Assembly: GCA_020721585.1 (NCBI GenBank)
Contig: DYMK01000001.1
Location: forward strand, 372,001 to 436,000
DNA from: Sulfuricurvum sp.
GTDB lineage: Bacteria; Campylobacterota; Campylobacteria; Campylobacterales; Sulfurimonadaceae
Length of the DNA stretch: 64,000 nt
Direction: 5' to 3'
This document shows, piece after piece, positions 4,330-33,997 of this stretch. Each line of letters starts with the position of its first letter. Positions within the stretch are counted from its first letter, which is position 1. A program made the translations under genes and the position numbers. The notes under the pieces are model-generated. The model did no database searches and had not been told where the DNA came from. It was given only the letters and a program-made list of their open reading frames with translations.

Positions 4330-5317
4330 GAACGTCATCGAGTTTGTGAAGCACTTCGCTGCTAAGCGTTAATTCCATCGCCTCTAAACTCTCATCCAAC
4401 TGCGAGGGTGTGGTTGCACCGATGATGGTGGAAGCGACAAAATCGAACTGTTTACTCCACGCAATCGCCATGGTCACAGGGTGAAGATTGGCTTCGTGGG
4501 CGATACGAAGATACGACTGCGTCGAAGCAAGGGTTTTATCGTTAAGAAACCGTGATGCCATGAGCCGTTGACGGGTATTGGGGGACTTGACATACTCGGT
4601 AAATCGCCCTTGAGCATCGATACTGTGGTTGTATTTGCCACTAAGTACCCCTCCCCCCAGCGGAGAATAGGGTAAAAGGGAGATTTTTTCTTCAGCACAC
4701 AACGCCCCAATTTCGGTCAAATCCCGTCGATTGAGCAACGAAAAATTGTTTTGGATCGATTCAAAACGGGTGAGTTTTTCGTATTTGGCGACCATCAACG
4801 CTTTCATTGTCCCCCGTGCGGTGTCGTTGGAGGTGCCGATATAGCGTACTTTACCGCTTTGCACCAACGCATCCATAGCACGTAGGGTCTCTTCGATGGG
4901 GACGATGGTATCGGGCCAGTGCATCTGATACAGATCAATGTACTCCGTTCCAAGGCGTTTGAGTGACCCCTCAACCGCACGTTCAATGTGGAACCGATCG
5001 CACGCGGTAAGACCATGACGGATAGGGGGGACAAACCATCCTGAAGCCGCCCCCGCTACTTTGGTGGCGAGGATAAGGGAATCACGGGGTTTGGTCTTAA
5101 GCCATTTTCCCACGATCGTCTCGGTTAATCCCGCTAGTTTTTGGGAGGGGGGGATGGGATAGAGTTCGGCAGTATCCAAAAAATTGACCCCCGCATCATA
5201 GGCTTTGTCCATAATCGCAAACGCGGTTTTTTCATCGCATTGCGACCCAAAAGTCATCGTCCCCAAGGCAATGGGAGAAACCCGCAATCCTGTCCGTCCA
5301 ATGTAACGATAGGTCAT
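4301..5317 (-). CDS. Aldo/keto reductase (Tas-like)
   Basis: 338 residues from ATG at 5317, chosen because it forms an ATGA overlap with the stop of the upstream aguB gene and has an AGAGGA site in front. Aldo/keto reductases reduce aldehydes and ketones with NADPH. Visible features: N-terminal YRYIGRTGLRVSPIALGTMTFG, catalytic Asp/Tyr region GVNFLDTAELYP, Lys in ILATKVAG and His in LYQMHWPD. C-terminal cofactor-binding segments are STIIGATTPSQLDES. The long loop and order match the Tas/YghZ-type subgroup. The natural substrate cannot be read from sequence. Confidence 0.88.
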   Translation of the reverse strand: MTYRYIGRTGLRVSPIALGTMTFGSQCDEKTAFAIMDKAYDAGVNFLDTAELYPIPPSQKLAGLTETIVGKWLKTKPRDSLILATKVAGAASGWFVPPIRHGLTACDRFHIERAVEGSLKRLGTEYIDLYQMHWPDTIVPIEETLRAMDALVQSGKVRYIGTSNDTARGTMKALMVAKYEKLTRFESIQNNFSLLNRRDLTEIGALCAEEKISLLPYSPLGGGVLSGKYNHSIDAQGRFTEYVKSPNTRQRLMASRFLNDKTLASTQSYLRIAHEANLHPVTMAIAWSKQFDFVASTIIGATTPSQLDESLEAMELTLSSEVLHKLDDVHAQILYPMG

Positions 5318-6168
5318 GATAAATCCTCTACCAATGCCCCATAACACTGGGGTCGTCGATCACGGATCAAGCCCCAATAGTGCCGATGGTGGCGATTTTC
5401 GGTAGGGTCAAAGGTGCTATAGAGTATCTCCTCTTTGTCCCGTGAAGCTTCAGCAACTTTTTCCCCCGTATGGTCGGTGATAAACGACGAACCATAAAAA
5501 GTCAACGTACAACTCTCCCCCACCTCTTCGCCAATACGATTGGCCGCCACCACAGGGATGATGTTGGCTGCACTATGCCCCATCTGTACCCGTTGCCAAT
5601 GGCGTGATGAATCGACCTCGATTTCAGGTTCGCTCCCAATAGCCGTAGGGTACAAGATTACATCTGCCCCCATAAGGGTCAAAGAACGCGCCGTTTCAGG
5701 GAACCACTGATCCCAACAAATCCCCACGCCCACGTTACCAAAAGCAGTTTTCCAGACTTTAAATCCCGTATCTCCGGGTTCAAAATAAAACTTCTCTTCG
5801 TACCCTGGCCCATCGGGGATGTGGGTCTTGCGGTAATTTTCCATCACGGTGCCATCCGCATCAATCATCACCAACGAATTAAAATAACGCTCCCCCTCCC
5901 GCTCGAAATAACTGATTGGTAAGACTACCCCAAGCTCCTGTGCAACGCGACTAAAATGGGCAATGAGTGGATTATTTTCCAACGGTTGCGCCCACGCAAA
6001 ATATTTTTTGTCCATGTCTTTGCAAAAATAGACCCCCTCAAACAGTTCAGGGATAAGGATAATATTGGCTCCATTGTCTGAGGCTTCACGGACAAGCCGT
6101 TCTGCGGTAATGACATTAGCAACCCTATCTTCCCCCATTTGCATCTGTAGTGCAGCGATTTTAACCAT
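5314..6168 (-). CDS. aguB: N-carbamoylputrescine amidase
   Basis: 284 residues of the nitrilase superfamily. The catalytic triad is in place: Glu in ILIPELFEG, Lys in NYRKTHIPDG and Cys in GVGICWDQWFPE. The motif HIPDGPGYEEKFYF and the QWFPE sequence are typical of AguB, which hydrolyses N-carbamoylputrescine to putrescine, CO2 and ammonia in the arginine/agmatine route to polyamines. No agmatine deiminase (aguA) lies within this window next to it, so the pathway partner must be elsewhere. It overlaps the aldo/keto reductase start by 4 bp. Confidence 0.9.
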   Translation of the reverse strand: MVKIAALQMQMGEDRVANVITAERLVREASDNGANIILIPELFEGVYFCKDMDKKYFAWAQPLENNPLIAHFSRVAQELGVVLPISYFEREGERYFNSLVMIDADGTVMENYRKTHIPDGPGYEEKFYFEPGDTGFKVWKTAFGNVGVGICWDQWFPETARSLTLMGADVILYPTAIGSEPEIEVDSSRHWQRVQMGHSAANIIPVVAANRIGEEVGESCTLTFYGSSFITDHTGEKVAEASRDKEEILYSTFDPTENRHHRHYWGLIRDRRPQCYGALVEDLS

Positions 6169-32721: not shown

Positions 32722-32761
32722 TTTTAGTATGATTTTTACACTATTTTCCAAAGAGGACACA

Positions 32762-32863
32762 ATGATACATACGATGGGAAGAAACTTATTTACGATGAAT
32801 ATGGATAAAAAAAACACCCTTAAAGCCATTGATCTGTTCGCGGGAATTGGGGGGATACGATAA
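32762..32863 (+). pseudogene. Truncated C5-cytosine DNA methyltransferase (first 33 codons)
   Basis: The frame MIHTMGRNLFTMNMDKKNTL then KAIDLFAGIGGIR ends in TAA at 32861. AIDLFAGIGGIR is motif I (SAM-binding FxGxG) of Dcm-type C5-methyltransferases, which are normally over 300 residues. All catalytic motifs after it are missing. AAAGAGGA precedes the ATG, so the start region is intact. The deletion joins the motif I codons to the start of the neighbouring nuclease gene, 3 bp downstream. Confidence 0.82.
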
Positions 32864-32865
32864 AT

Positions 32866-33639
32866 ATGAAACAATCTGGAACCAAACATCAAAACTATGA
32901 AATTCTTAATCTCATCGGTTATGGACTTTCAAAGTTTAACGATGATTTTATCAAAGAGTTTGGGTTTACCACCAAAACAGCTTTTTATGATTATTGCGTT
33001 TTGAATACTATCGCGCAAACGGTGGGAACAGTAAAAAATAGAATGGATTTATTTGATCATTTTTTTCCAGACAATGGAAGAAAAGGGTGGTGGCAAAAAG
33101 GTGACACCTATATTCATAGAAAAATTTTAATTGATAATTTATTTGGGCTTGAAAATGTAAAAGGGTATGCCAATATTGTAAAGCTCTATATGAAAGAAAA
33201 TTATGCGGTTAAAGATATTTCCATCAGCGTAAAACCAATCGTTAAATCACGATTTAAAAAACTTCAAGAAACGGGTTTAGAAGCAGAAATCTACTTTATG
33301 AATAATTTTCATACTATTAATCAATTTAGTGAAGGAAAACTCGAAGATGCCCGATTGTTTGGCGACGGGTACGATTTTCAAGTCACGGTTGATCACTCTA
33401 TCTATCTAGCCGAGATAAAAGGGATTCGAGAAAAAAAAGGGAAATTTAGACTGACCGAAAATGAATACAAAAAAGCATCAGAATATCAAAATGACTATAT
33501 TGTGACGCTCGTGTTAAATATGAATGACGTTCCTAATTTCCTCACCATTGAAAATCCCATCAAAAATTTAAGGTTTGAAGAACGGATAATTCAGTCTAAA
33601 ACAACTAAAGAATATCACTTACTAGGAGAAATATGTTGA
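32866..33639 (+). CDS. DUF3883-type nuclease, probable type II restriction enzyme
   Basis: 257 residues. The C-terminal half matches the DUF3883 nuclease-like fold: EAEIYFMNNF, DARLFGDGYDFQV, then IYLAEIKGIREKKGKFRLTE with a D...ExK pattern (Asp about 168, EIK near 184). The N-terminal half is helical (FLLN-type, no match). It immediately follows the methyltransferase stub, so it is likely the cognate restriction enzyme of that pair. With the methyltransferase gone, either it is inactive or another methyltransferase protects the chromosome. Low GC. It overlaps the next gene by 7 bp. Confidence 0.6.
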   Translation: MKQSGTKHQNYEILNLIGYGLSKFNDDFIKEFGFTTKTAFYDYCVLNTIAQTVGTVKNRMDLFDHFFPDNGRKGWWQKGDTYIHRKILIDNLFGLENVKGYANIVKLYMKENYAVKDISISVKPIVKSRFKKLQETGLEAEIYFMNNFHTINQFSEGKLEDARLFGDGYDFQVTVDHSIYLAEIKGIREKKGKFRLTENEYKKASEYQNDYIVTLVLNMNDVPNFLTIENPIKNLRFEERIIQSKTTKEYHLLGEIC

Positions 33640-33869
33640 CGCTTAATGAGAAAATTGAATACTTTGAACAATATTTACGGAATCATGATAGCTTTATGGA
33701 AGAAGAACTTCATTTATATTTTTTCGAGCTTGAAAATGGTAGCTTTGATTTTCTAAATCAGTTAAATTCTAAGCTTGCAATAGAGAATAAAATTGAATAT
33801 CTTGTTGAAAAGATGCTGAGGCACTATCATGAAGATGGATTGCATAATATCATAGAGAATTATTTATGA
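33633..33869 (+). CDS. Small acidic protein, unknown
   Basis: 78 residues, starting MLTLNEKIEYFEQYLRNHDS. It is predicted helical, rich in Glu and aromatic residues, with no motif that I recognise. AGGAG lies 6 bp upstream inside the DUF3883 gene, and the start overlaps that gene, so it is part of the same operon. It may be a small accessory or immunity-like partner of the nuclease. This is speculation from position only. Confidence 0.5.
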   Translation: MLTLNEKIEYFEQYLRNHDSFMEEELHLYFFELENGSFDFLNQLNSKLAIENKIEYLVEKMLRHYHEDGLHNIIENYL

Positions 33870-33997
33870 AATTTTTCACTAAAAAATTCATAAATATAAC
33901 TAGAAATCAAATTGACAAAATAAATGATTCAACGTATGAAATCAATTTTGCTTCAAGTGGTAGTTATGCTAAATTTATCGGATTAGATACTAACTGA
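33866..33997 (+). CDS. 43-residue protein, probably a truncated gene
   Basis: It starts with an ATGA overlap on the previous gene and reads MKFFTKKFINITRNQIDKIN before ending in AKFIGLDTN. The coupled start shows that translation was meant to continue the operon. The abrupt end, 21 bp before the cca start, suggests the right edge of the acquired R-M locus, where a longer gene was cut. No function can be assigned. Confidence 0.4.
   Translation: MKFFTKKFINITRNQIDKINDSTYEINFASSGSYAKFIGLDTN

Follow-up and report, generated by a model that had tools for sequence, protein, structure and literature searches.

A NOV_C nuclease and a small partner ORF recurrently found between the ends of broken type II restriction-modification operons

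We looked at a locus of Sulfuricurvum sp. lying in a window of 64,000 nucleotides (the whole stretch of DNA that was analysed), where a nuclease gene and a small partner ORF stand between the first codons of a C5-methyltransferase (MTase) gene and the last codons of a restriction endonuclease (REase) gene. The same arrangement appears again and again across many unrelated bacteria and, as far as sequences can tell, this recurrent pattern is the finding. We hold it to be rather probable, if well short of certain, that an independent cassette of nuclease and partner repeatedly enters type II restriction-modification (R-M) operons, leaves their promoter end in place and outlasts the R-M genes. 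This reading draws on the anatomy of the loci, their recurrence, one pair of an empty and an occupied site, one pair of loci differing in the MTase, and purifying selection on the nuclease.

Anatomy of the window locus

From the start of the MTase, the nuclease, the partner ORF and the end of the REase follow in this order:

32762 to 32863, + strand: 5' remnant of a C5-MTase, 33 codons, stopping directly past motif I (ORF, BLAST, PADLOC)
32866 to 33639, + strand: NOV_C/DUF3883 nuclease, 257 amino acids (PF13020 profile, alignment, predicted model)
33633 to 33869, + strand: partner ORF, 78 amino acids, predicted all-helical, its start overlapping the nuclease stop (family c2, model)
33911 to 33997, + strand: 3' remnant of an NgoFVII-type REase, 28 codons and a stop (BLAST, tblastn)

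The MTase remnant begins with an ATG at 32762 and ends with a TAA at 32861-32863, its last codons reading AIDLFAGIGGIR, and a ribosome-site-like AGAGG is seen by eye 5' of it, at 32752-32756. An intact MTase found in a related genome (L109) shares 76% of its first 33 residues with the remnant (E 1e-9), and the best match of the remnant among the PADLOC type II MTase models has an E-value of 4e-5; these two matches make its identity more than chance, while a Pfam search with the 33 codons, a short piece, gave no match. The first-pass annotation was thus right in describing an MTase cut right past motif I, and the gap to the nuclease start, which it had put at 3 bp, is 2 bp long (32864-32865). 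On the other side, the REase remnant is 86% identical to L016 over 87 nt (E 1.8e-24), and tblastn of its region gave an E-value of 6e-12 over 46 residues; the REase piece of L016 matches PF20731, the NgoFVII C-terminal B3-like domain (E 1.6e-13). A type II R-M system would have an intact MTase beside its REase and an intact cognate REase. In the window 33 codons of the first and 28 NgoFVII-type codons of the second remain, and the operon has lost both genes, with its outer ends alone left.

R-M systems are hard to lose, since loss of the MTase before that of the REase kills the cell. The nuclease had been taken for the leftover REase of this MTase, lethal without it; the true REase is a different, NgoFVII-type enzyme, and there is no paradox of lethality because the MTase and the REase of the operon are both destroyed. 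A match elsewhere in this genome, suspected to be a second nuclease copy (G000:C15, E 3e-4), was rejected as due to chance, the surrounding ORF being on the opposite strand and unrelated.

The nuclease and the partner ORF

The nuclease gene, as first annotated, is intact. Its 257-amino-acid product matched PF13020 (NOV_C, which we take to be one family with DUF3883) with 59.1 bits for a cut-off of 22.1 and an E-value of 4.8e-16. The predicted model (pLDDT 88.3) has an N-terminal helical part (residues 1-134) and a C-terminal PD-(D/E)XK fold (about 135-241). In a comparison of the model with known folds, Hjc and a SPARDA subunit (both Z 9.2) were matched, as were the homing endonuclease I-Ssp6803I (Z 8.0) and other PD-(D/E)XK nucleases, and the matches covered residues 135-241 only. 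D170 and E183-x-K185 are invariant across 51 aligned sequences (alignment A1), and the modelled protein joins a PD-(D/E)XK fold to conserved acidic and lysine residues. The N-terminal part alone was covered by none of the fold matches listed, which is no sign of a new fold, and a sequence search of solved structures with the nuclease returned one hit at chance level. Among the PADLOC defence families, nothing matched except the NOV_C end of the TmtA models (best E 5e-8). The phage search gave no match to the nuclease and the plasmid search two distant ones only (24-25% identity); in viral contigs, 11 stretches matched a pattern and none was confirmed. In 10 pairs from five campylobacterotal genes the pN/pS of the nuclease was 0.10-0.19, which points to strong purifying selection.

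The partner family of the window, c2, is present in 27 loci (24 sequences in alignment A2). Its model has a pLDDT of 93.9, the fold search with it gave no match (best E 4.5), and its pN/pS was 0.27-0.36 in six pairs. An ORF of 30-135 amino acids starting -40 to +60 nt from the nuclease end was counted at 41 of the 70 loci analysed, 26 of the window type and 15 of other types, with several unrelated families among them; the automatic count missed the partner ORF of L016, detected separately. A small gene directly 3' of a candidate toxin gene, as in toxin-antitoxin pairs, is therefore found at 41 of 70 loci.

Survey of the nuclease loci

A contig scan yielded 67 loci, and within the family of the window genome the nuclease was present in 6 of 228 genomes. 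After dropping duplicates (L007, L008, L011), 70 loci, related and hence not independent, remained for analysis, and a C5-MTase profile made from 15 sequences and 336 columns long was applied to them. At 24 of them a C5-MTase lacking its C-terminal part stood directly upstream of the nuclease by the profile count; five more had a shorter N-terminal remnant, found via BLAST or by eye, 12 had REase homology downstream only, and two (L010 and L068) had an intact MTase upstream. By the automatic count, 27 loci lacked both REase homology and any MTase piece next to the nuclease, so residence in an R-M operon is not obligatory. These counts are conservative: MTase starts are seen by eye upstream of L037 (MKFIDLFAGIG) and L061 (GELFCGPGG), which the automatic count had placed under 'neither' and 'only REase'.

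The first-pass annotation had proposed a search of relatives for an intact MTase-nuclease pair, which does exist at L010 and L068, and had tied the nuclease to C5-MTases, which the 27 loci contradict in part. Three of the 27 have C5-MTase sequence of another kind nearby: a complete MTase-REase pair upstream of L015, a 3' piece of an MTase downstream of L035 and a reversed MTase piece at L072. Also among the 27, the gene before L064 clusters with the gene upstream of L010. At 21 of the 27, the neighbours (60 proteins) were mostly single housekeeping families, and PF00145 matched two members among the 25 commonest families listed.

The 24 MTase fragments end at 24 different positions, from column 26 to column 322 of the 336, and four of them (L060, L062, L070 and L073) lack only about 14-27 columns. 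Two more distant copies repeat the arrangement. In G375 (33% identical) a 118-amino-acid MTase piece is followed by the nuclease and by ORFs of 74 and 54 amino acids, and in G228 a second copy (53% identical) stands between a 383-amino-acid MTase frame without the profile end and an 84-amino-acid ORF. In G529 (30% identical) there is an MTase frame of 526 amino acids, then other genes; this locus (L103, 5483-8221, minus strand) has the NOV_C gene directly after a full-length MTase and a vsr-like gene, and upstream of a GHKL-like ATPase gene and then large genes, the names vsr-like and GHKL-like being those that we presume from the sequences. We also saw, as a single example, a decayed C5-MTase with both ends kept in an 85-amino-acid frame and no NOV_C gene adjoining (L146 of G236, 4782-5039).

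An assembly artefact was rejected as the general cause of the pattern, which is also seen in named isolate records (L023, L024, L032 and L038) and, at the occupied site of G091 described below, within a single contig.

Junctions and state of the remnants

The MTase frame stops close to the nuclease start. In a set of 25 loci, which includes the two intact MTases and leaves out L070, where no start codon was found, the stop lay -8 to +12 nt from the nuclease start at 18 loci, compared with a proportion of 0.385 in random joins, and -30 to +25 nt from it at 23 loci, compared with 0.61; the loci being related, no exact probability is claimed. We infer that this proximity of stop and start fits translational coupling. 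In the window, the remnant stop lies 2 bp before the nuclease start, and the nuclease is therefore probably translated from the old MTase leader. Nine of the 25 upstream frames end in -VA, with varying codons and in two MTase families, often near the same bases; such an ending could mark a left border common to the cassettes, or serve as a tail signal resembling a C-terminal degradation tag. Random internal deletions would account neither for an MTase loss that nearly always reaches the nuclease border nor for the -VA ends. The sole exception to this border-reaching loss seen by eye is L039, where a vsr-like nuclease frame (upstream ORF, 5506-5997) enters a tiny MTase remnant in two pieces.

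Downstream, 26 loci gave REase homology (L040 and L062 against themselves as references, and the REase of L010 is complete). The REase that follows these MTases is of the NgoFVII type, or gives a weak EcoRII-C match in relatives. Of the 21 loci with a partner ORF as well as REase homology, 15 have the REase resume at most 30 nt past the stop of the partner. The junctions cluster, at residues 17-31 in five loci and 231-253 in seven, in three reference numberings. The second group, L017, L019, L020, L021, L044, L051 and L078, belongs to several nuclease clades and resumes at the start of the B3-like domain. In L044 and L020 the REase piece has an ATG overlapping the partner end, and a separate DNA-binding protein may thus be made from it. 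An imperfect palindrome of about 76 nt lies between the partner ORF and the REase in L023, L038 and L060. It was rejected as a mark of the cassette, because matches at E 0.01 occur in five of eight genomes, with 18 in G230, as expected of a repeat common in flavobacterial genomes.

We then considered the age of the remnants. The pN/pS of the MTase 5' pieces was 0.17-0.60 in nine pairs, compared with 0.13 for two intact MTases, the window piece being 33 codons long; over residues 98-205 of the flavobacterial MTase it was 0.14-0.16 in six remnants and 0.19 between intact genes. Stops inside the remnants were found in none of nine N-terminal MTase remnants and in two of 18 B3 pieces. Since remnants look no more relaxed than intact genes, either the losses are recent, or recombination renews the flanks, or the remnants remain in use. 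Slow decay is disfavoured, since it would leave more damage, and a one-step replacement would be compatible with these data. The first-pass annotation had read the clean junction as a deletion near the gene border; the border relic stands, and either a deletion or a replacement could have produced it.

Comparison of empty and occupied sites

In G239 (L109), an MTase of 327 amino acids and an REase of 344 are contiguous after a gene that we presume to be mfd-like. In G091 (L106, one contig), the same operon carries an insert of 893 bp exactly between MTase and REase, made of the nuclease and of a partner shortened in frame. This is one case of an empty and an occupied allele, as expected of a homing element. 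The first codons of the G091 nuclease (MKIEK) are similar to those of the REase (MSIEK), which is a small though suggestive sign. Two cyanobacterial loci, L073 and L071, whose DNA is 92% identical, both have the nuclease; a nearly complete MTase precedes it in L073, and L071 lacks the MTase, with 95 bp where L073 has 1217 bp, for which a deletion would be the simpler reading.

Nuclease and flanks have separate histories. Between L023 and L032 the nucleases are 76% identical, the MTases 89% and the REases 90%, and the two nucleases are not neighbours in a tree of 66 rows, yet the REase resumes at residue 17 in both. Between L040 and L057 the nucleases are 90% identical and the MTases 51%, and between L016 and L010 the synonymous difference is 0.33 for the nuclease and 0.093 for the MTase piece. 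Finally, the nucleases of the window and of L012 are sisters (99/95), and their MTase ends and REase types differ.

These observations bear on a homing-like selfish endonuclease of R-M operons, by which the nuclease, or recombination in the flanks, would convert intact operons, the loss of the flanks being a side effect of break repair. The empty and occupied alleles, the separate histories, the residue shared by L023 and L032, the clustered REase junctions and the young look of the flanks agree with it, as does the presence of I-Ssp6803I in the fold list, although Z scores of about 8 are frequent over such cores of the PD-(D/E)XK type and say nothing of function. However, the MTase end points all differ in the 24 fragments, no common target sequence was seen and 27 of 70 loci are away from R-M operons, and we consider this reading doubtful. 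Equally tentative is a parasite of R-M systems, which would be copied via R-M flanks into intact operons, destroy both genes at once and take over the promoter; the cell would survive because no unpaired REase is left when both genes go together.

C5-methyltransferases of the host genomes

The nuclease could also be modification-dependent (type IV-like), cutting DNA methylated by such MTases and persisting where the resident MTase is broken. In the profile count, 26 loci have an MTase match immediately before the nuclease, and in 24 of them this C5-MTase is indeed incomplete. However, G091 has complete MTase, nuclease and REase frames adjoining, and in G239 the nuclease coexists with an intact MTase at another locus, the N-terminus of which is 97% identical to the MTase fragment of that genome. 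Moreover, the window genome has four intact C5-MTases and other hosts up to seven PF00145 matches; any of these MTases could be of another specificity or silent. We find this explanation quite improbable.

Nor, in general, is a protective MTase elsewhere in the genome needed, which the first-pass annotation had offered as one option. Among 16 nuclease-bearing genomes, PF00145 had no match in two (G065, which is 100% complete, and G230; completeness is not given for most of the others) and a short fragment only in three (G229, G238 and G241), and in G237 the truncated gene is the only match. It is very unlikely that the removed MTase had this nuclease as its cognate REase: the nuclease adjoins the MTase directly, a related nuclease follows a full-length MTase in the distant L103, and DUF3883 has been termed a novel REase domain (PMC3710099) and presumably tallied among the type II REases of a survey (PMC10609329), but these MTases adjoin their own REase without the nuclease in L109 and L116-L119, the nuclease is found beside unlike MTases and REases, and it occurs in genomes without an intact C5-MTase.

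Discussion

Under the cassette reading that we prefer, a NOV_C nuclease with its small helical partner would have entered a type II R-M operon at the MTase/REase border. The 3' part of the MTase and nearly all of the REase would have been lost either upon entry or in subsequent deletions, and the promoter, the ribosome site and the first 33 MTase codons retained. The nuclease would most likely be a stand-alone, restriction-like defence enzyme and not the REase of the R-M system, its conserved N-terminal part recognising DNA or a trigger and its PD-(D/E)XK part cutting. The host would be spared by the small partner, as a putative regulator, or by a recognition rule, and not by C5-methylation. 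Against this reading stand the intact MTases of L010 and L068, the four nearly complete fragments, the 27 of 70 loci without adjacent R-M parts by the automatic count, remnants that are not clearly relaxed, and the border-reaching MTase losses and -VA ends for which random deletions do not account.

The locus resembles several known systems in part. PrrC, an anticodon nuclease, is encoded within an R-M operon of type Ic, and the likeness is that of a second nuclease gene among R-M genes; in contrast to PrrC, the window nuclease has a predicted DNA-nuclease fold and persists past the loss of the R-M system, and so would not simply be its guard. With PD-(D/E)XK homing endonucleases such as I-Ssp6803I it shares the fold class and a pair of empty and occupied sites, whereas the gene parts flanking the cassette are lost, with 24 different MTase ends and clustered REase junctions. 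The flanks are the outer ends of a type II R-M operon with an NgoFVII-type REase (PF09565/PF20731), intact relatives of which are L116-L119, but neither R-M gene is whole in the window. R-M operons with MORC/GHKL genes have been described (PMC2292703), and L103, with its 30%-identical NOV_C nuclease between the vsr-like/MTase genes and the GHKL-like ATPase gene, is alike; the window cassette, unlike these, has no ATPase, helicase or intact MTase. With the PF13020 nucleases treated in PMC3710099, the window protein shares the profile match, the predicted PD-(D/E)XK fold, D170 and E183-x-K185, and it differs in standing alone, with 257 amino acids, its own N-terminal part and a partner ORF, and without a helicase fusion. 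In the literature searched, which lay outside subscription journals and REBASE, we found no paper on nuclease cassettes central to broken R-M operons.

For annotation, a NOV_C nuclease by a cut-off C5-MTase would usually not be the partner of that MTase. Because the relics form a graded series, insertion, promoter takeover and R-M loss can be tested directly. If the cassette repeatedly replaces the middle of the operon, it would offer a safe exit from R-M, one defence gene succeeding another at one address; and if the parasite reading were true, this gene family would remove R-M systems from genomes and substitute itself for them.
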